NCBI RefSeq assembly: GCF_024346395.1
Contig: NZ_JAGQCW010000003.1
Coordinates: 1 to 64,000, forward strand
DNA: 64,000 nt
Origin: Cyanobium sp. AMD-g
Lineage (GTDB): Bacteria > Cyanobacteriota > Cyanobacteriia > PCC-6307 > Cyanobiaceae
Direction: 5' to 3'
Shown here: positions 3,712 through 44,484 of the stretch, piece by piece
Numbering within the stretch: the first letter of the stretch is position 1
Layout: each line of letters opens with the position of its first letter
The notes under the pieces: model-generated
Database searches by the model: none
What the model was told of the DNA's origin: nothing
The model's input: only the letters and a program-made list of their open reading frames with translations
Made by a program: the position numbers and the translations under genes

Positions 3712-3789
3712 GGCGGCAGGCGCAGGGGGCGGGGCCGCACGCTGGCCGGGCTTCCTAGCATCGTCCTTCACCGCAACGCCCCTGCGTCC

Positions 3790-4695
3790 ATGGCTTCGTC
3801 ACCCGAAATCCCCTGGCAGTTCCTGGGCCATCGGGTGCACGCCATTCGCTCGGCTCCGCAGCAGCCCACCGGCCCGGCGATCCTGCTGGTGCATGGCTTC
3901 GGGGCCTCCACCGACCACTGGCGCTTCAACATTCCGGTGCTGGCCCGCACCCATGAGGTCCACGCCATCGATCTGCTCGGCTTCGGCCGCAGCGCCAAAC
4001 CCGCTGGCCTCACCTACGGCGGCGCCCTCTGGCGCGACCAGCTCTGCGCCTATGTGGAGCAGCGGATCGGCCGGCCCACGGTGCTGGTGGGGAACTCCCT
4101 CGGCGGCTTTGCCGCCCTGGCCGCCGGCGCTGCCCTTGGTGATCAGGCTGCGGGCGTGGCGCTGCTGAACGCCGCCGGCCCCTTCAGCGACGAGCAGCAG
4201 CCACCCCAGGGGTGGGGGGCGATCGCCCGCCAGACAATCGGGTCGGCCCTGCTGCGCAGTCCGGTGCTGCAGCGCCTCCTGTTCGAGAACATGCGCCGCC
4301 CCGCCACGGTGCGGCGCACCCTCAATCAGGTCTACATCGACCGCACCAACGTCGATGACGAGCTGGTCGAGGCGATCCTGCGGCCCTCGCGGGATCCAGG
4401 GGCCTTCGGCGTCTTCCGCACCGTCTTCGACATCCCCCGCGGCCAACCCCTCGACGAACTGTTCGCCGGGCTCACGGCGCCGTTGCTGTTGCTCTGGGGC
4501 ATCCGCGACCCCTGGATCAACGCCGCCGGTCGCCGGGCCAGCTTCCAGCGGCATGCACCTGCCCGCACCACCGAAGTGGTGCTCGACGCCGGCCACTGCC
4601 CCCACGACGAGGTGCCCGACCAGGTCAACCGGGCCCTGCTGGAATGGCTGGCGGGGCTGGTGGAAAGCCCGGTTGCCGTGCTGACCGCCCACTGA
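3790..4695 (+). CDS. Alpha/beta hydrolase
   Basis: A 301-residue alpha/beta-hydrolase-fold enzyme. Visible landmarks are the oxyanion-hole motif HGFG (35-38), the nucleophile elbow GNSLGG with Ser103, an aspartate at 240 in WGIRDPW and His269 in AGHCPHDE, so the Ser-Asp-His triad is complete. A lid region of about 100 residues (about 125-225) separates the core halves. No signal peptide is seen, so it is probably cytoplasmic or membrane-associated. The start is the ATG at 3790. Similar cyanobacterial proteins resemble haloalkane-dehalogenase or pheophytinase-like hydrolases; the substrate cannot be read from sequence. It lies 53 bp upstream of the acyltransferase triplet. Confidence 0.88.
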   Translation: MASSPEIPWQFLGHRVHAIRSAPQQPTGPAILLVHGFGASTDHWRFNIPVLARTHEVHAIDLLGFGRSAKPAGLTYGGALWRDQLCAYVEQRIGRPTVLVGNSLGGFAALAAGAALGDQAAGVALLNAAGPFSDEQQPPQGWGAIARQTIGSALLRSPVLQRLLFENMRRPATVRRTLNQVYIDRTNVDDELVEAILRPSRDPGAFGVFRTVFDIPRGQPLDELFAGLTAPLLLLWGIRDPWINAAGRRASFQRHAPARTTEVVLDAGHCPHDEVPDQVNRALLEWLAGLVESPVAVLTAH

Positions 4696-4748: not shown

Positions 4749-6857
4749 TTGATCGCCGCCGTCACAGGCACCGGAGCCGCGCCAGGGGCGAGCCGCCAGG
4801 CGGACGGTGTGGGCGGGAAGGCGGGTGGCTTTGCCTACCGGCCGGACATCGATGCGCTGCGCGGGGCGGCGATGCTGGCGGTGCTGGTGTTCCACCTGAA
4901 CAAGGGGTGGCTGCCGGGTGGCTTCACGGGGGTGGATGTCTTTTTTGTGATTTCGGGCTACGTGGTGATGGGCTCGCTGCTGGGCCAGGCGAGCAAGCCG
5001 CTGTGGCCGCGGCTGGGCAATTTCTATCTGCGGCGGGTGCGGCGTCTGCTGCCGAACCTGCTGGTGTGCCTGGGGGTGACCAGTCTGGGTGTGGCGATGC
5101 TGATCCCGCCGCTGGAGAGCGGGCCCTATTTCATCGTGGCCCTCAAGGCGCTGTTCGGCTGGTCGAACAACTACCTGATGGGCCAGTTGGATTACTTCGC
5201 CACGGATGCGGACCTGAATCCCTTTCTGCACACCTGGTCGCTGGGTGTGGAGCAGCAGTTCTACCTGGTGTTTCCGCTGTTGATGGTGGGGATCGGCTAT
5301 GGGGTGCGGCGGAGCGTGCCGCTGCTGGCGGCGCTGATCGTGCTGTCGCTGGGGGCGAGCTGGTGGTGGACGCAGAGCGCCCCGATGGCGGCTTTTTTCC
5401 TGATGCCGAGTCGGTTGTGGGAACTGACGGTGGGCTCGCTGCTGCTGGTGGCGCAGCGACGGGGTCTGCTGGGGGCGGATTGGCTGAAAGGCCGCTGGCC
5501 GCGGCTGGCGGGGGCGGCGCTGCTGCTGTGGGCGGTGGTGATGACGTCGGAGCGTGAGGGCTTCCCGGTGCCGGGTGTGCTGCCGGCGGTGCTGGGGACG
5601 CTGCTGGTGCTGCAGGCGGGCCCCGGTGAGGGGGGCAGATTCCTGCCGGGCCGTTGGCTGGAGCGCGGTCTGCTGACGTGCGGGCTGCTGTCGTATTCGC
5701 TGTACCTGTGGCACTGGCCTGTGATCGTGCTGCTGCGGTGGACGTGGGGGATGGAGACGTGGTGGCAGTACGTGGCGGCGGTGGCCGGGAGCGTGGTGCT
5801 GGCGGTGGCGGCGTACGGGCTGGTGGAGCAGCCGGTGCGGCGCTACCCGCTGAAGTGGTGGTGGGAGACGCTGCTGGCGCTGCTGGCCCTTGGGGGCCTG
5901 TGGATGGCCATCGACACCCTCCACTATTCGGTGCGCGGCCGCTTCTTCATCGGCACTGATCGGGATCCGGTTCCCCTGCACGAACGGGTGCAGGAGTGGA
6001 ATCCCACCCTGCCGGGCACCCGGATCGATCAGAACTGCGCCATCCCCTACTGGACCCCCTACAGCCCCGCCAGCCGCTCCGATCTTGAACGCTGCAGCAA
6101 GCCCGGTCGGCCCGGTGCCGGGGAGATCTTCCTGCTGGGCGATTCCCATGCCGAGCATCTGCTGCCGATGCTCGACCTGGTCACCGCCGTGACCGGCCAG
6201 CGCATCACCTTCACCAACAAGCGCTCCTGCTTCATTGATCCCCAGCTCACCCTGTTCCTCAACAACCGGCCCTACAAGCCCTGCACCGATTTCGCCGCCG
6301 GGGAGATGGAGCGGGCCCTCGAACGTCTCAAGCCGGGAGACATCGTGATGATTTCCAGCAACCTCAACAACTACCTGAGCACTTCTGATCCGGGGGGCAC
6401 AAGCCAGGGGCAGCCGGCCTACCTCTCAGACCGGCGGCTGAATGTCGCCGAGCTGCGTCAGGCCCACATCCTCAGCATGCGGGCCTATGCCCAGCGGCTG
6501 GCGGCCCGGGGCATCGAGCTTGTGCTCGTGGTCGACAACCCGGCCCTCGCCCGGGAGATCGTGGCCTGCCCGAAGGATTCCACCAGCAGCTGTGCCCCCA
6601 ACCCCGCCGTCACCGCCGCCGGTCAGCTCTCCGTGCGCCTCACCCTGGAGGCGGCGGCGGCTGGTCTGCCCAACGTGCACGTCTTCGACCCCACCCCCTA
6701 CCTGCTTGGTCCGGATGGCCGGGTGCGCTACCGCAATGACTTGGGCAAGATCATCTATTCCGACTCCCATCACCTCAGCGTGACGGGCAGCCGCTCGCTG
6801 GCGGAACCGTTCAGGCGGTTCCTTTCCGAGGCGGGCCTGATTCCGGGGGCCCGCTGA
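4749..6857 (+). CDS. O-acyltransferase, acyltransferase-3 + SGNH (copy 1 of 3)
   Basis: A two-domain O-acetyltransferase of the OafA type, 702 residues from a TTG start at 4749. This start is preferred because the resulting leader matches the length and Ala/Gly composition of copies 2 and 3. Residues about 28-380 form the polytopic acyltransferase-3 domain, with the catalytic-type His49 in VFHLNKGWLPGG, then GVDVFFVISGYVVMG, LRRVRRLLPN and HTWSLGVEQQFYLVFP. After a last helix comes a periplasmic SGNH domain with Ser466 in LLGDSHAEH and Asp672/His675 in the late DSHH motif. OafA-type proteins transfer acyl groups to surface sugars. The stop overlaps the next start (TGATG). The sugar acceptor is unknown. 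Confidence 0.9.
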   Translation: MIAAVTGTGAAPGASRQADGVGGKAGGFAYRPDIDALRGAAMLAVLVFHLNKGWLPGGFTGVDVFFVISGYVVMGSLLGQASKPLWPRLGNFYLRRVRRLLPNLLVCLGVTSLGVAMLIPPLESGPYFIVALKALFGWSNNYLMGQLDYFATDADLNPFLHTWSLGVEQQFYLVFPLLMVGIGYGVRRSVPLLAALIVLSLGASWWWTQSAPMAAFFLMPSRLWELTVGSLLLVAQRRGLLGADWLKGRWPRLAGAALLLWAVVMTSEREGFPVPGVLPAVLGTLLVLQAGPGEGGRFLPGRWLERGLLTCGLLSYSLYLWHWPVIVLLRWTWGMETWWQYVAAVAGSVVLAVAAYGLVEQPVRRYPLKWWWETLLALLALGGLWMAIDTLHYSVRGRFFIGTDRDPVPLHERVQEWNPTLPGTRIDQNCAIPYWTPYSPASRSDLERCSKPGRPGAGEIFLLGDSHAEHLLPMLDLVTAVTGQRITFTNKRSCFIDPQLTLFLNNRPYKPCTDFAAGEMERALERLKPGDIVMISSNLNNYLSTSDPGGTSQGQPAYLSDRRLNVAELRQAHILSMRAYAQRLAARGIELVLVVDNPALAREIVACPKDSTSSCAPNPAVTAAGQLSVRLTLEAAAAGLPNVHVFDPTPYLLGPDGRVRYRNDLGKIIYSDSHHLSVTGSRSLAEPFRRFLSEAGLIPGAR

Positions 6858-9800
6858 TGGTGGCCGCCGCCAGCATCGAACGCACCGCTGCCGCGGCGCA
6901 GCCGTCGGAGCGCTTTGCCTACCGGCCGGACATCGATGCGCTGCGCGGGGCGGCGATGCTGGCGGTGCTGGTGTTCCACCTGAACAAGGGGTGGCTGCCG
7001 GGTGGCTTCACGGGGGTGGATGTCTTTTTTGTGATTTCGGGCTACGTGGTGATGGGCTCGCTGCTGGGCCAGGCCAGTAAGCCGCTGTGGCCGCGGCTGG
7101 GCAATTTCTATCTGCGGCGGGTGCGGCGTCTGCTGCCGAACCTGCTGGTGTGCCTGGGGGTGACGAGCCTGGCGGTGGCCCTCTGGGTTCCCCCCGGCGA
7201 GAACGGGCCCTACTTCATGACCGCCATCAAGGCGCTGTTCGGCTGGTCGAACAACCACCTGATGGGCCAGATCGATTACTTCAATCCGGACGCCGACCTG
7301 AACCCGTTTCTGCACACCTGGTCGCTGGGTGTGGAGCAGCAGTTCTACCTGGTGTTTCCGCTGTTGATGGTGGGGATCGGCTATGGGGTGCGGCGGAGCG
7401 TGCCGCTGCTGGCGGCGCTGATCGTGCTGTCGCTGGGGGCGAGCTGGTGGTGGACGCAGAGCGCCCCGATGGCGGCGTTTTTCCTGATGCCGAGTCGGTT
7501 GTGGGAACTGACGGTGGGCTCGCTGCTGCTGGTGGCGCAGCGACGGGGTCTGCTGGGGGCGGATTGGCTGAAAGGCCGCTGGCCGCGGCTGGCGGGGGCG
7601 GCGCTGCTGCTGTGGGCGGTGGTGATGACGTCGGAGCGTGAGGGCTTCCCGGTGCCGGGTGTGCTGCCGGCGGTGCTGGGGACGCTGCTGGTGCTGCAGG
7701 CGGGTCCCGGTGAGGGGGGGAGATTCCTGCCGGGCCGTTGGCTGGAGCGCGGTCTGCTGACGTGCGGGCTGCTGTCGTATTCGCTGTACCTGTGGCACTG
7801 GCCTGTGATCGTGCTGCTGCGGTGGACGTGGGGGATGGAGACGTGGTGGCAGTACGTGGCGGCGGTGGCCGGGAGCGTGGTGCTGGCGGTGGCGGCGTAC
7901 GGGCTGGTGGAGCAGCCGGTGCGGCGCTACCCGCTGAAGTGGTGGTGGGAGACGCTGCTGGCGCTGCTGGCGGTGGCGGGCCTGTGGATCGGCATCGATG
8001 CCCTCCAGAACGGCCTGCGTGATCGTCTCTTTCTGGGCACGGATCGCGATCCGGTTCCCCGCACGGAACGGATCCAGAACCTGAAGATCCCCGGCACGGG
8101 CATCGGCAGCGGCTGCAGCCTTGTGTACGGCCAGCCCTACAACGACGCCACCCGGATCGATTTCGAGCGCTGCGGCCGGCCCGGCCGGCCCGGTGCCGGC
8201 GAGATCTTCCTGCTGGGCGATTCCCACGCCCTGCACCTGCTGCCGATGCTCGATGCGGTCACCGCCCGCACCGGCCAGCGGATCAGCTTCACCTATCAGA
8301 TGGCCTGCTTCACCGATCCCAGCCTGCTGATGAGCTGGGGCAACAAGAGCTACGGCCCCTGCCGCGACTTCGTGATCGGCGAGATGGAGCGCTCCCTGGA
8401 GCGCCTCAAGCGCGGCGATGTGGTCGTGCTCTCGTCCTGGCTCAACTACTACGTGGGCGATGTCACCCCCGCCGGCACCCCCAGCGAGGCCCAGGTGATG
8501 GACGGCGCCCGGCGTCTCACCCCGGCCCAGGCCCGAGCCCGCCACGTGGCCAACCTACGGGCCTACGCCCAGCGCCTCGCCGCCCGCGGCATCCAGCTGG
8601 TGCTGGTGGTGGACAGCCCGATGCTCGCCCGCAAACCTCTGGAGTGCCGCCGCTCCACCGGCCAGCCCGTCAGTTGTGCGCCGGAGGTGGCTGTGACGGC
8701 GGCGATGCAGCGCACGGTGCGCGACACCCTGACCGCGGCGGCGGCGGGCCTGCCCAACGTGCATGTCTTCGATCCCACCCCCTATCTGGTGGATGCGGAT
8801 GGCCGGGTGCTGGACCGCCGGCCAGATGGCACCCCCCTGTTCGCCGACAACCACCATCTCAGCGTCAGCGGCAGCCGATCATTGGCGGCGCCGTTCGAGC
8901 GGTTCCTGTCGCAGGCGGGCCTGATCCCGGGGGGCCGCTGATGGTGGTGGCACCGACCAGCCAGGGAGCCGCCGCCGCGGCGAGCGTCCCGGCGACCGGA
9001 GCCGGCGGGAAGGCGGGTGGCTTTGCCTACCGGCCGGACATCGATGCGCTGCGCGGGGCGGCGATGCTGGCGGTGCTGGTGTTCCACCTGAACAAGGGGT
9101 GGCTGCCGGGTGGCTTCACGGGGGTGGACGTCTTTTTTGTGATTTCGGGCTACGTGGTGATGGGCTCGCTGCTGGGCCAGGCGAGCAAGCCGCTGTGGCC
9201 ACGGCTGGGCAATTTCTATCTGCGGCGGGTGCGGCGGCTGCTGCCGAACCTGCTGGTGTGCCTGGGGGTGACCAGTCTGGGTGTGGCGATGCTGATCCCG
9301 CCGCTGGAGAGCGGGCCCTATTTCATCGTGGCCCTCAAGGCGCTGTTCGGCTGGTCGAACAACTACCTGATGGGCCAGTTGGATTACTTCGCCACGGATG
9401 CGGACCTGAATCCCTTTCTGCACACCTGGTCGCTGGGTGTGGAGCAGCAGTTCTACCTGGTGTTTCCGCTGCTGATGGTGGGGATCGGCTATGGGGTGCG
9501 GCGGAGCGTGCCGCTGCTGGCGGCGCTGATCGTGCTGTCGCTGGGGGCGAGCTGGTGGTGGACGCAGAGCGCGCCGATGGCGGCGTTTTTCCTGATGCCG
9601 AGTCGCCTGTGGGAACTGACGGTGGGCTCGCTGCTGCTGGTGGCGCAACGGCGGGGGCTGCTGGGTGCGGATTGGCTGAAAGGCCGCTGGCCGCGGCTGG
9701 CGGGGGCGGCGCTGCTGCTGTGGGCGGTGGTGATGACGTCGGAGCGTGAGGGCTTCCCGGTGCCTGGGGTGCTGCCGGCGGTGCTGGGGACGGTGCTGGT

Positions 9801-10079
9801 GCTGCAGGCGGGTCCCGGTGAGGGGGGGAGATTCCTGCCGGGGCGTTGGCTGGAGCGCGGTCTGCTGACGTGCGGGCTGCTGTCGTATTCGCTGTACCTG
9901 TGGCACTGGCCTGTGATCGTGCTGCTGCGGTGGACGTGGGGGATGGAGACGTGGTGGCAGTACGTGGGGGCGGTGGCCGGGAGCGTGGTGCTGGCGGTGG
10001 CGGCGTACGGGCTGGTGGAGCAGCCGGTGCGGCGCTACCCGCTGAAGTGGTGGTGGGAGACGCTGCTGGCGCTGCTGGC
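4830..10079 (+). repeat. Three direct repeats of a ~1,057-bp coding module
   Basis: Units lie at about 4830-5887, 6914-7971 and 9022-10079, spaced roughly 2.1 kb apart with equal lengths. Each runs from the codons for FAYRPDIDALRG to those for WWWETLLALL. Long stretches match base for base with only isolated, mostly silent differences. The sequence between units, encoding the SGNH domains, has diverged strongly. The pattern indicates tandem duplication followed by repeated sequence homogenisation of the membrane module only. Confidence 0.93.
6857..8941 (+). CDS. O-acyltransferase, acyltransferase-3 + SGNH (copy 2 of 3)
   Basis: A 694-residue paralogue of the preceding gene with the same architecture. 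The membrane domain (about residues 20-372) is almost identical at DNA level to copies 1 and 3. The exception is a divergent patch around residues 106-152, where ALWVPPGENGPYFMTAIK and IDYFNPDADL replace the sequence the other two share. The SGNH domain has Ser456 in LLGDSHALH and a C-terminal DNHHLS, but most surface residues differ from the other copies. The ATG at 6857 overlaps the stop of copy 1 by one base, and the stop overlaps copy 3 in the same way, so translation is probably coupled. Presumed role: periplasmic O-acylation of a surface glycan with its own acceptor preference. Confidence 0.9.
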   Translation: MVAAASIERTAAAAQPSERFAYRPDIDALRGAAMLAVLVFHLNKGWLPGGFTGVDVFFVISGYVVMGSLLGQASKPLWPRLGNFYLRRVRRLLPNLLVCLGVTSLAVALWVPPGENGPYFMTAIKALFGWSNNHLMGQIDYFNPDADLNPFLHTWSLGVEQQFYLVFPLLMVGIGYGVRRSVPLLAALIVLSLGASWWWTQSAPMAAFFLMPSRLWELTVGSLLLVAQRRGLLGADWLKGRWPRLAGAALLLWAVVMTSEREGFPVPGVLPAVLGTLLVLQAGPGEGGRFLPGRWLERGLLTCGLLSYSLYLWHWPVIVLLRWTWGMETWWQYVAAVAGSVVLAVAAYGLVEQPVRRYPLKWWWETLLALLAVAGLWIGIDALQNGLRDRLFLGTDRDPVPRTERIQNLKIPGTGIGSGCSLVYGQPYNDATRIDFERCGRPGRPGAGEIFLLGDSHALHLLPMLDAVTARTGQRISFTYQMACFTDPSLLMSWGNKSYGPCRDFVIGEMERSLERLKRGDVVVLSSWLNYYVGDVTPAGTPSEAQVMDGARRLTPAQARARHVANLRAYAQRLAARGIQLVLVVDSPMLARKPLECRRSTGQPVSCAPEVAVTAAMQRTVRDTLTAAAAGLPNVHVFDPTPYLVDADGRVLDRRPDGTPLFADNHHLSVSGSRSLAAPFERFLSQAGLIPGGR

Positions 10080-11067
10080 GGTGGTGGGGTTGTGGCTCGG
10101 CATCGATGCCCTGCACCACCCGTTCCGCGGCAAGTTGTTCCTGGGTGTGGATGCTGATCCTGTGCCGATCAGCGAGCGGGTCCATGCCCTCAATCCCCTG
10201 GTCCCGGGCACCGGGATCACCAGCGATTGCACGGTCGCCAGTGGCAAGCCCTATAACGCCACCACCCGGCCGAATTTCGACAAGTGCAACCGGCCCGGCC
10301 TCCCCGGTGCCAGGGAGATCTTCCTGCTGGGCGATTCCCACGCCCAGCACCTGCTGCCGATGCTGGACGCCGTGACGGCCCGCACCGGCCAGCGCCTCAC
10401 CTTCGCCGCCATGGGCGCCTGCCTGATCGACCCGAAGCTCACGGTCACCTGGCAGCAGGGCCGCTACGAATCCTGCCGCCAGTTCGCCGCCGGCGAGATG
10501 GATCGTTCCCTGCAGCGTCTCAAGCCCGGTGACATTGTCCTGGTGTCGGGGTTCCTGCACAACTACCTGGCCAGCAACGACATCGAGGGCCGGGGCTATG
10601 GCGCCCCCACCTACCTGGGCGACCGCCGCCTGAGCATCGCCGAGGTGCGCCGCGCCCATGTCGCCGGCCTGCGGGCCTACGCCCAGCGCCTCGCCGCCCG
10701 CGGCATCCAGCTGGTGCTGGTGGTCGACAACCCGTCCCTGGCCAGGGAGCCTGTGGCTTGCCAGGATCCGGCCGGCAGCAGTTGCTCCGGCGATGCCGCC
10801 ACCACGGCCCGGATGCGGGCGACCCTACGGACCCTGCTGGCTGAAGTGGCCGCCGGCCTGCCCAACGTGCATGTGTTCGATCCCACCCCCTACCTGGTCG
10901 GTCCCGATGGCCGGGTGGTCTACCGCCGGCCCGATGGCACGCCGCTCTACGCCGATTCCCACCACCTGAGCGTGTCGGGCAGCCGATCACTGGCAGCCCC
11001 GTTCGAACGGTTCCTGCAACAGCAGGGCCTTACCAGCCCCCGGCCCACCGCCTCCCCCTCCCCATGA
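8941..11067 (+). CDS. O-acyltransferase, acyltransferase-3 + SGNH (copy 3 of 3)
   Basis: A 708-residue third paralogue, starting at the ATG that shares its A with the stop of copy 2. The leader, rich in Ala and Gly, ends in GGKAGGFAYRPD as in copy 1. The membrane domain carries the copy-1 version of the patch (LGVAMLIPPLESGPYF) but has its own scattered silent changes. The SGNH domain has Ser466 in LLGDSHAQH and DSHHLSVSGS near the end, and ends in a Pro/Ser/Thr-rich tail. Its stop overlaps the start of the epimerase-like gene (ATGA), so the three acyltransferases and that gene form one coupled unit. Confidence 0.9.
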   Translation: MVVAPTSQGAAAAASVPATGAGGKAGGFAYRPDIDALRGAAMLAVLVFHLNKGWLPGGFTGVDVFFVISGYVVMGSLLGQASKPLWPRLGNFYLRRVRRLLPNLLVCLGVTSLGVAMLIPPLESGPYFIVALKALFGWSNNYLMGQLDYFATDADLNPFLHTWSLGVEQQFYLVFPLLMVGIGYGVRRSVPLLAALIVLSLGASWWWTQSAPMAAFFLMPSRLWELTVGSLLLVAQRRGLLGADWLKGRWPRLAGAALLLWAVVMTSEREGFPVPGVLPAVLGTVLVLQAGPGEGGRFLPGRWLERGLLTCGLLSYSLYLWHWPVIVLLRWTWGMETWWQYVGAVAGSVVLAVAAYGLVEQPVRRYPLKWWWETLLALLAVVGLWLGIDALHHPFRGKLFLGVDADPVPISERVHALNPLVPGTGITSDCTVASGKPYNATTRPNFDKCNRPGLPGAREIFLLGDSHAQHLLPMLDAVTARTGQRLTFAAMGACLIDPKLTVTWQQGRYESCRQFAAGEMDRSLQRLKPGDIVLVSGFLHNYLASNDIEGRGYGAPTYLGDRRLSIAEVRRAHVAGLRAYAQRLAARGIQLVLVVDNPSLAREPVACQDPAGSSCSGDAATTARMRATLRTLLAEVAAGLPNVHVFDPTPYLVGPDGRVVYRRPDGTPLYADSHHLSVSGSRSLAAPFERFLQQQGLTSPRPTASPSP

Positions 11068-11905
11068 CCCTGCAATCCCCCGCCGGGGACTTCCCCCACT
11101 GGCGCTTCACCGATCCGGCCAGCGGCGATTCGCTCACGGTCGCCCCCGAGCGCGGCGGGCTGGTCACCGGCTGGTGCTGTGGCGGAGCTGAGATCCTCTA
11201 CTTCGATGCGGAGCGCTTCGCCGACCCCGCCAAATCGGTGCGGGGCGGAATCCCCGTGCTCTTCCCCATCTGCGGCAACCTGCCGGGCGATGTGCTCACC
11301 CTGCCCCAGGGGACGTTCCCGCTGGCCCAGCATGGCTTCGCCCGGGATCTGCCCTGGTCCATCGCCCCGCTGGCCGACGGCAGCGGTGTGGCCCTGCGCC
11401 TTGAGGACGGCCCGCAAAGCCGCCCCCATTTCCCCTTCGCCTTCGCCCTGGAGTTGGAGCTGCAGCTCCACCCCTCGGCCCTGGCGATCACGGCCCGGAT
11501 CACCAACCGGGGCGAGGCCGGGACAGCGGCCCTTCCCTTCAGCCTTGGCCTGCACCCTTACATCGCCGTCGCCGATCTGGCCCGCGTGCGGCTCGAGGGC
11601 CTGCCGGAGAGTTGCATCGACCACCTCAGCATGGCTCCGGCCGCCACCGCCGATCAGCTGTCCCGGCTGGAGCAGGGGGTGGACTTCCTCTGCAGCGGCC
11701 AGGGCCCGGTGCGCCTGGTGGATCCAGCGGGGGGTCGGGTGGTGACGCTGCATCTCTCGGCGCCCATGGATCTGGTGGTGGTGTGGAGTGACCCGCCCCG
11801 GCCCATGCTCTGCCTGGAGCCCTGGAGCGGGCCGCGGGGAGCCCTGAGCACGGGGGAGCGGCGCCTGCTGGTGCCCGCCGGGGAGTCCCTGGAGCTGGGT
11901 TGCCG

Positions 11906-11927
<22 letters not shown>
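11064..11927 (+). CDS. Aldose-1-epimerase family protein (D-hexose-6-phosphate mutarotase-like)
   Basis: A 287-residue galactose-mutarotase-superfamily protein. Seen: VRGGIPVLFPICGNLPGD, the LAQHGFARDLPW histidine motif, LGLHPYIAV with the presumed catalytic histidine, and a C-terminal glutamate in LCLEPWSGP. This is the layout of YeaD-like hexose-6-phosphate 1-epimerases, which interconvert alpha and beta anomers of phosphorylated sugars in the cytoplasm. The start overlaps the stop of the third acyltransferase (ATGA). Its 3' end overlaps the convergent glcE by 22 bp. The exact sugar is not deducible. Confidence 0.87.
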
Positions 11928-43383: not shown

Positions 43384-44484
43384 TCAAGTATTGGCGGATG
43401 CTTTGAATCTTGACTTTAGCGACATGCATGGCATTTCTATAAAATGATAGGAAGCGCCTGCGATTAACAGTGTGCCTATGGATGTTGCAAGAATGAGCTG
43501 ACTAGGACTGATCTGGCCAGACTTGAGATGTGGCAGTATGCTATCTATGAGAAATGGATGAAATACATAGGCTCCGTAGCTTATTCGACCTAGGTATTGG
43601 AAAGGGGATATCTCAAGAATCAACCCCATGGCATTGGGCAAGGACAGGCCTGCTACTGCCACAATTCCTACGTAGCCTAGTCCAAAAGAAACATTTCCGA
43701 AAATAATATCTACCCATTTGGGGGCAACCCCAGTCTGTCGGATTATGAAAGCAGCTAAAACGTATGCTAAGGGCATGTAAGCAAAAAATCTTATGGTTCT
43801 TGTGTCAGCTTTGGATATTTTGGCTTTCAGTACAGGATAAACAAAGGAGAGTGCCGAGCCAAGGGCTAGAAGGTCAAGATTTGATTGTGTTGATATATAT
43901 GTGCCTAACGCAGTCATGGACGTATATCCTGAATGGATGTAAAAGGCCTTGGCCGATAGGGAAATGATTATGGCTGCTAATGGCGCGATCCATGTGACTC
44001 GCAATGGCAAGGCTAAAATCAATAATGGCCAGACCAAATAAAACTGATGCTCAACGGCTAACGTCCAAAAATGGGCAAAGTGTGGTTCATACCAGTCTTG
44101 TGCCCCCATCTTGAAATTTAGTGTGTAGGTGGCTAGCCATGGTGTCAATCCACGTGCGCCGCCAAGATTCATCAAGATTGCAGCAAGTACGACGGCGAAG
44201 TAAAGAGGGTAAATTCGAAGGGCGCGGCGGATAAAGAATTGTCTTAAGCCTCTCGGGAGCTTTTCGCTTCCATCTGCCACCTTGTTCTTTAGCTTCAATA
44301 GGATTGATGTGATTAGGAATCCGCTCAGCACAAAGAAGATATGAACACCTGCTGTCGCCACATAGTCAAGGTTTGGCGAACCCGGCACAGCTTGGCTTAA
44401 GTGATGAGCAATCACCCCCAGTACGGCTACAGCGCGTATGCCATCCAGTTGCGGCATGTAGGTTGATCTCGTGGTGGCTTTCAT
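43384..44484 (-). CDS. O-acyltransferase, acyltransferase-3 family (no SGNH domain)
   Basis: A 366-residue polytopic membrane protein starting at MKATTRSTYMPQLDGIRA. Catalytic-type histidines lie in AVLGVIAHHLSQAV; GVHIFFVLSGFLIT and RRALRIYPLYF follow, and HFWTLAVEHQFYLVWPL is the conserved second block. It ends with SYHFIEMPCMSLKSRF, so no SGNH domain is attached. The shared blocks (VEQQFYLVFP-like, GVxVFFVISG-like) place it in the same broad family as the triplet at 4.7-11 kb, but it is not a close copy. It probably acylates a surface sugar. AT-rich; convergent with paralogue C across a 177-bp gap in which I see no gene. Confidence 0.88.
   Translation of the reverse strand: MKATTRSTYMPQLDGIRAVAVLGVIAHHLSQAVPGSPNLDYVATAGVHIFFVLSGFLITSILLKLKNKVADGSEKLPRGLRQFFIRRALRIYPLYFAVVLAAILMNLGGARGLTPWLATYTLNFKMGAQDWYEPHFAHFWTLAVEHQFYLVWPLLILALPLRVTWIAPLAAIIISLSAKAFYIHSGYTSMTALGTYISTQSNLDLLALGSALSFVYPVLKAKISKADTRTIRFFAYMPLAYVLAAFIIRQTGVAPKWVDIIFGNVSFGLGYVGIVAVAGLSLPNAMGLILEISPFQYLGRISYGAYVFHPFLIDSILPHLKSGQISPSQLILATSIGTLLIAGASYHFIEMPCMSLKSRFKASANT

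Follow-up and report, generated by a model that had tools for sequence, protein, structure and literature searches.

The stretch analysed here, termed the window, comprises 64,000 nucleotides of Cyanobium sp. AMD-g (positions 1 to 64,000 of NZ_JAGQCW010000003.1; contig C3 of a 3.12-Mb genome, G000, assembled in 13 contigs). Near its beginning lie three genes, arranged head to tail, each of which encodes an acyltransferase-3 (AT3) membrane domain followed by an SGNH domain, referred to as the head. The starts of genes 2 and 3 overlap the preceding stop by 1 base, and an AT3 segment of ~1,060 bp, referred to as the module, is common to the three genes at 96–98 % DNA identity, which confirms an earlier description of the locus (the sequence-only reading) as three coupled genes with near-identical AT3 segments. 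The features are listed below, with TMH denoting a transmembrane helix, dS the divergence at silent sites and GRINS the genetic repeats of intense nucleotide skews.

4749..6857, + strand: gene 1, AT3-SGNH acyltransferase with head type A, TTG start (open reading frame, Pfam)
6857..8941, + strand: gene 2, AT3-SGNH acyltransferase with head type B, ATG start (open reading frame, Pfam)
8941..11067, + strand: gene 3, AT3-SGNH acyltransferase with head type C, ATG start (open reading frame, Pfam)
4830..5888, + strand: AT3 module copy 1, homogenised and skewed; GRINS region 4771-5970 (sliding dS, GRINS criteria, blastn)
6914..7972, + strand: AT3 module copy 2, homogenised and skewed; GRINS region 6901-8040 (same evidence)
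9022..10080, + strand: AT3 module copy 3, homogenised and skewed; GRINS region 8971-10110 (same evidence)
7166..7315, + strand: unconverted island of gene 2, comprising the end of TMH3 and the TMH3-TMH4 loop, type-B version, weak skew
7940..8011, + strand: TMH11 of gene 2 (model residues 362-385), end of the copied tract
5928..6854, + strand: linker/SGNHext and SGNH head, type A
8012..8938, + strand: linker/SGNHext and SGNH head, type B
10120..11064, + strand: linker/SGNHext and SGNH head, type C

A constant module and divergent heads

Full-length copies of the module number three genome-wide (100, 98 and 96 % identical to copy 1 over 1,011 bp), the only further matches being three short fragments. 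Sliding estimates of dS (NG86) for the three gene pairs are mostly below 0.1 over codons 30–372, with exceptions inside the module: one window of the gene 1/gene 3 pair reaches 0.34, and values of 0.25–0.66 occur around an island in gene 2. The uniformity previously ascribed to the module holds at the level of 96–98 % DNA identity but not at this island (codons ~112–161), where identity is only 78 % in DNA and 74 % in protein. SGNH windows give a dS of ~0.2–2.6 and the domain-wide SGNH value is 0.64–0.74; the heads are divergent at silent sites but not saturated, and of the silent divergence that had been predicted, near zero in the module and saturated in the SGNH region, the first part was borne out for most of the module and the second was not. 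Nor are the SGNH domains alike only at catalytic motifs, as the sequence-only reading had it, their cores being ~62 % identical in protein. After the N-terminal tail, the most different part of the proteins is the linker/SGNHext, with 43–53 % protein identity between paralogues.

An even spread of silent identity was rejected in 3/3 gene pairs by permutation of silent-site runs (p 0.0001–0.0002), which excludes uniform divergence over the whole gene. An assembly artefact is likewise excluded, as the same A-B-C triplet is present in the single-contig genome G022, and three-gene arrays are also resolved in the drafts G012 (~10 contigs) and G025 (~30 contigs).

All three proteins match PF01757 and then PF19040 above the curated Pfam cut-offs. 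The residues of R-X10-H and RXXR (R30, H41, R88 and R91, gene 2 numbering) and the SGNH catalytic residues S456, D664 and H667 (same numbering) are invariant in 31/31 aligned proteins, a set for whose depth 21 loci from viral contigs were used. In the AlphaFold2 model of gene 2 based on these 31 sequences (mean pLDDT 83.1, pTM 0.58), predicted helices run to H362–385 and are followed by the head, a pattern compatible with a 10-TMH core plus TMH11 and a putatively extracytoplasmic head. A sequence search of the PDB gave no match, and fold searches did: the modelled head is best matched by the periplasmic domain of OafB (6se1; Z 19.4, rmsd 3.5, 239 aligned), whereas the membrane part matches HGSNAT (Z 13.9, rmsd 4.9, 268 aligned), a middling Z-score for helical bundles and close to what their arrangement alone can give. 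Domain order, predicted helices, R-X10-H, RXXR, SGNH residues and the OafB-like head fold all resemble OafA, OafB and OatA as presented in the available parts of PMC7448272, PMC9833829 and PMC9558356; here, by contrast, three copies stand in tandem with a homogenised AT3 domain. The start region of gene 1 (LIAAVT.T) is conserved in 4/4 other first genes inspected. A phage or mobile origin was considered and rejected: among the best 80 of 230 viral-contig loci, all are 25–38 % identical, with no close viral source.

Modules and heads in related genomes

With gene 3 as the query (E<=1e-100), 16 of 42 genomes of the genus match, including the window's own and G338, the latter left out of the analysis; 18 regions were compared, and the named contigs include Synechococcus sp. 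BO 8801 (G005), an Aphanothece saxicola metagenome-assembled genome and Cyanobium sp. Aljojuca 7A6. Complete three-gene arrays are found in G000, G012, G022 (single contig) and G025, and a complete two-gene array, with A and C heads only and no B, in G005. In G019 (single contig) one AT3-SGNH gene lies at the same locus, with no match to the epimerase gene that adjoins the arrays. The draft contigs of nine genomes (G002, G003, G007, G008, G011, G017, G024, G203 and G169) end inside the array, and such arrays are therefore probably under-counted.

The same A, B and C heads in the same order were seen in three resolved genomes and partly in others, which places the origin of the triplet before these species. 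The SGNH domain of gene 1 is 90–96 % identical to that of gene 1 in G012, G005 and G022, that of gene 2 is 93–96 % identical to the four other B heads, and that of gene 3 is 89–97 % identical to the other C heads seen; the SGNH cores of seven window-to-relative pairs of the same type are 93–97 % identical in protein. Within genomes, the dS of AT3 (codons 161–370) is 0.02–0.08 in G000, 0–0.12 in G012, 0.02–0.07 in G022, 0.01 in G005, 0.03 in G002 and 0.04–0.19 in G025, compared with 0.14–0.22 between the window genes and their same-position orthologues in G012, G022 and G005. The relation is reversed in the SGNH domain, with a dS of 0.52–0.76 within A/B/C genomes and 0.23–0.41 against the orthologues in the same three relatives. 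Maximum-likelihood trees (25 rows, those with fewer than 240 codons in either domain being left out) separate the two domains in the same manner. Sorting the A/B/C rows of the SGNH tree by type takes 2 changes, the fewest possible, and sorting them by genome takes 10. In the AT3 tree without the loop island (18 rows), 9 changes are needed for type and 4 for genome, as few as five genomes allow. The single row of G011 did not enter the genome counts, and neither count used the D/E/F and outgroup rows. Copies of the AT3 module are homogenised genome by genome, and each SGNH head type forms its own orthologous lineage.

The proposal that one AT3 engine is kept uniform before different SGNH heads is supported by these comparisons, but the accompanying idea that the heads are diversifying at present is not supported, since A, B and C are conserved positional orthologues (93–97 %, with some C heads at 89 %) whose replacement divergence (dN) is far below dS. 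When the window heads are compared with their orthologues from G012, G022 and G005, dN is 0.02–0.05 and dN/dS about 0.07–0.13; dN being so far below dS, the heads are under purifying selection, without an arms-race signature.

As anticipated, relatives carry the same array with other copy numbers (two or three) and another head set. Orthologues with identical SGNH sets, named beforehand as an outcome that would speak against the sequence-only reading, were encountered only in part, in the A/B/C clade, whereas another clade carries different heads at the same locus: D, E and F in G025, E and F in the part of G203 that is seen, and F in G024. Head D is 63–64 % identical to head A. The GC content of the D/E/F heads is 0.55–0.58, compared with 0.66 in their own modules and 0.68–0.72 in the flanks of G025, which is consistent with head replacement. 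In 300 family genomes, of which 17 match at E<=1e-60, a donor of the type-F head was not found, the best matches being G203 (96 %), G024 (88 %) and then G025's own E head (59 %); the D and E heads were not searched.

The copied tracts end in or just after TMH11. In 12/12 within-genome pairs the last near-identical run ends at codons 374–399 (gene 1 numbering), and in 10 of these within TMH11 (370–393). The linker/SGNHext that follows constrains acceptor specificity in OafA and OafB, according to the available part of PMC7448272. The second part that escapes copying is the island of gene 2 (residues ~104–153), which spans the end of helix 77–110 and the entire stretch up to helix 154–173, and which corresponds in position to the TMH3-4 loop of OafB; in simulations described in the accessible text of PMC9833829, that loop (residues 95–135) either obstructs the acyl-CoA channel or leaves it open. 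The loop is spared from copying in 4/5 B genes, and in a tree of the island alone the B copies of G000, G012, G022 and G002, together with the C copy of G002, form one clade (support 100/100). N-termini have been exchanged between genes, with a B-type N-terminus on gene 3 of G012 and a C-like one on gene 2 of G022. Gene 1 of G011 is a recombinant that joins an A-type N-terminus and an A/C-like loop to a B head, which suggests unequal exchange within the module, and recombination through the module has probably changed the copy number.

Several array sequences show irregularities. A one-base frameshift in the module, either a real loss or a sequencing error, interrupts gene 1 of G022 (L058, 10163-12332), and the last gene of G002 (L064, 5539-7971) lacks ~57 AT3-module codons in frame, through deletion or assembly collapse. 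In BO 8801 (L060/L048), a 3.1-kb extra contig is 99.94 % identical to part of the array and has ~2x the coverage of the main contig; it is possibly an extra A-C unit left apart by the assembly, i.e. a duplication, or else assembly redundancy, and its two rows were counted in the fourfold skew survey described below and excluded from the trees. Beyond the genus, where arrays were little sampled apart from one pair, AT3-fused SGNH was found in 4 of 146 genomes of the phylum (E<=1e-12), with neighbouring copies in the window's own genome only. The pair belongs to G102, a member of another genus (L131, 7058-11325), and is a tandem AT3-SGNH pair with a DNA identity of 79 % in AT3 and 57 % in SGNH and no intense skew; it may represent the state before homogenisation.

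Array contigs that extend past the array share one set of neighbouring genes, in one order. On one flank lie a phosphorylase, a Na/H exchanger and an alpha/beta hydrolase, and on the other an aldose epimerase, a FAD-binding gene, which we take to be glycolate-oxidase-like, and further genes. The immediate neighbours in the window are:

3787..4695, + strand: alpha/beta hydrolase, conserved upstream neighbour (Pfam, synteny)
11064..11927, + strand: aldose 1-epimerase family gene, conserved downstream neighbour, whose start overlaps the gene 3 stop (Pfam, synteny)

Farther along, 37835-63222 resembles a surface-polysaccharide region, with an ABC exporter, several glycosyltransferase-like and epimerase-like genes and a separate AT3 gene (43384-44484) whose fourfold sites are A-rich; apart from AT3, these gene names were read from translations. 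The region is a possible candidate source of the acceptor glycan.

Strand skew and its likeness to GRINS

An extreme GC skew of the module, absent from the sequence-only reading, sets it apart: when the 64 kb are divided into 631 overlapping 1-kb windows, the AT3-module windows are the 19 strongest by absolute GC skew. Fourfold sites of the modules in the window are 80–83 % G. Fourfold GC skew is 0.65–0.84 in 24/24 array AT3 stretches longer than 90 codons (7 shorter stretches were left unscored, and 2 of the 24 come from the possibly redundant BO 8801 contig), compared with -0.27 to -0.03 in array SGNH heads, -0.09 to 0.28 in 7 non-array or non-homogenised AT3 homologues (including G019 at 0.04 and the G102 pair at 0.08 and 0.02) and -0.26 to 0.02 in the five other AT3 genes of the genome (first 370 codons of open frames). 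Third-position G replaces C, as seen in alanine GCG (0.82 versus 0.22 in the A/B/C heads) and valine GTG (0.95 versus 0.67), and the module uses CTG for leucine at 0.97. At twofold sites, T against C is about equal in modules (0.31) and heads (0.29). Inside the AT3 domain, windows of higher within-genome identity are more strongly skewed (rho 0.35 over 257 windows, whose overlap makes the p-value only a guide), the mean going from 0.32 in 7 windows below 85 % identity to 0.78 in 167 windows of at least 98 %.

The sign of the skew follows the coding strand, also in G022, whose array lies on the opposite strand of its contig, and an origin in the replication strand is doubted on this ground. The coding strand of the module has an excess of G-run motifs, but this excess follows from the skew itself, and a G-quadruplex cause of the skew was set aside. 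Long antisense open reading frames (591 and 625 aa) lie on the - strand at 6770-8545 and 8782-10659, opposite the acyltransferase genes; they are most likely a by-product of G-rich module codons and not genes.

GRINS are defined by a length of at least 500 bp, more than 80 % DNA identity to a nearby region and mean absolute values above 0.15 for both GC skew and TA skew (PMC9899208, PMC10394414); blastn identity was used here instead of the published pairwise2. All three modules of the window qualify, with regions of 1,140–1,200 bp at a mean identity of 0.95–0.98, a GC skew of 0.25–0.27 and a TA skew of 0.36–0.37, as do 14/14 duplicated regions in five resolved arrays, while single-copy L063 yields no GRINS region. 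The TA skew may follow from membrane-protein coding, leaving only the GC skew distinctive. The link of GRINS to gene conversion between copies is also present here, in dS, trees and permutation. The published location in assembly-line polyketide synthase (PKS) genes is not shared, as the module sits in AT3-SGNH genes, and it is for this reason termed only GRINS-like. GRINS reportedly also occur in other gene families, according to the original report of 2021.

The form of the array, which the sequence-only reading did not know to be described, has a close described relative in GRINS and concerted evolution in polyketide synthases. As far as the available portions of PMC9899208, PMC10394414 and PMC11907408 go, GRINS share with the module a size of ~1 kb, more than 80–90 % identity to a neighbour, strong GC/TA skew and conversion in a modular array; they differ in that the units here are separate tandem AT3-SGNH genes and not megasynthase modules, the differing head lies outside the repeat and the TA part of the skew is maybe due to membrane coding. 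The concerted evolution of PKS and non-ribosomal peptide synthetase genes, in the accessible part of PMC4256081, likewise makes paralogues more identical than orthologues while domains that stay different escape homogenisation. A homogenised domain set beside escaping domains is the nearest precedent in the portions available (PMC11907408, PMC4256081). The 26 prokaryotic genes with long-lasting concerted evolution in PMC6053082 are, in the available text, homogenised as whole genes, whereas here only one domain per protein is affected; among the genes named there are tuf, amoA/B, psbD and fla, and "transferase" appears nowhere in the main text. Among the matches listed from the open-licence literature, no paper treats AT3-SGNH genes in connection with GRINS, gene conversion or tandem arrays; one match concerned a plant gene that shares the name AT3.

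Interpretation and alternative explanations

Taken together, these observations make it highly probable that the three genes form an operon for surface-glycan O-acyltransferases of the OafA/OafB type, and that the membrane halves of these enzymes evolve in concert by way of a GRINS-like skewed repeat of ~1 kb. Recurrent gene conversion, with occasional unequal recombination, would homogenise the AT3 module within each genome. By analogy with the family, each AT3 domain would take an acyl group from acyl-CoA and pass it through the membrane to the SGNH head of the same protein, and that head would transfer it to a glycan outside the cytoplasm; the heads and their linkers (SGNHext) may differ in acceptor or position. 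A single channel would in this way be mended and held in common, with three acceptor specificities preserved. An advantage against phage or grazers is speculative.

Several results weigh against this reading. The module is not fully uniform, given the gene 2 loop and an inter-module dS of up to 0.19 in G025, and the AT3 tree hardly favours either grouping once the loop island is put back (6 changes by genome, 7 by type). The loop is not always tied to the head, as a B gene of G011 has an A/C-like loop and a C gene of G002 a B-like loop. No GRINS region is obtained from L064, where the module is interrupted by a deletion, or from L051, which holds only the end of a second module, and the single-copy G019 gene has a TA skew of 0.34 in its AT3 domain as well. 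Conversion is not distinguishable everywhere from repeated crossing-over, and the HGSNAT score is close to what the packing of helices alone can give.

Among the alternatives, neutral concerted evolution, in which chance conversion of long tandem segments occurs with skew as a by-product and three redundant enzymes, has an appreciable chance of being correct, though well below even. Conversion between tandem repeats is common, and the loose tie between loop and head, the resolved G005 array without B, the first gene of G011 with a B head and the frameshift in the module of G022 gene 1 are all as this explanation would have it. The heads nevertheless stay distinct under a dN/dS of about 0.07–0.13, with A, B and C retained in several species; the clustering of tract ends at TMH11 also speaks against it, though loss of homology explains that clustering too.

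A foreign origin, in which the module carried its skew on arrival and later spread to the other genes of the array, is unlikely. The skew of the module is indeed unlike that of the genome's five other AT3 genes, but no skewed homologue was found outside the genus: of 300 family genomes, 16 match the single-copy homologue at E<=1e-110, and the six genes extracted from other genera have values of -0.09 to 0.28. The homologue at the same locus in G019, free of homogenisation, is unskewed. Still less credence is given to a recent tandem duplication of one gene followed by SGNH replacement or rapid divergence, with no ongoing homogenisation. Near-identical modules beside divergent heads would look the same in one genome alone, and the low-GC D/E/F heads appear as if heads were replaceable; yet separate recent duplications would not have produced one and the same set of A, B and C heads, 89–97 % identical and in the same order across genomes, with modules closer within genomes than between them, and the explanation is largely refuted by the reciprocal trees. 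Strong purifying selection on AT3 at the RNA or codon level without recombination, for which the conserved AT3 protein and the extreme codon usage of the module might be cited, is very improbable, as selection on sequence alone does not make paralogues (dS 0–0.12 within A/B/C genomes) more alike than orthologues (0.14–0.22) and would need a separate constraint in each genome, of which we know none.

Concerted evolution through the skewed module, the reading preferred here, admits a further and tentative extension, itself more doubtful than probable: GRINS-type homogenising outside assembly lines may keep one acyl-CoA channel for several exchangeable heads. The skewed module would serve as a recombination handle through which the engine is repaired, chimeras arise and heads are added, lost or swapped, as in the sets A/B/C and D/E/F; conversion would be resisted by the two pieces that have to match the head, the TMH3-4 gate and the TMH11/SGNHext junction. 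The matching of loop to head is speculative, as is a role of the skew as driver rather than by-product of conversion.

A repeat resembling the type reported for giant antibiotic synthases occurs here in an operon of only three genes whose locus is fixed, and in the same place a related genome carries one homologue, single-copy and unskewed; the cause of GRINS skew and conversion could become testable in a simple system. The conversion boundaries, in turn, map the parts of AT3-SGNH proteins that are shared between heads, namely most of TMH1–10, and those that are usually not, namely the TMH3-4 loop of gene B, TMH11/linker and SGNH, which bears on how AT3 and SGNH cooperate.

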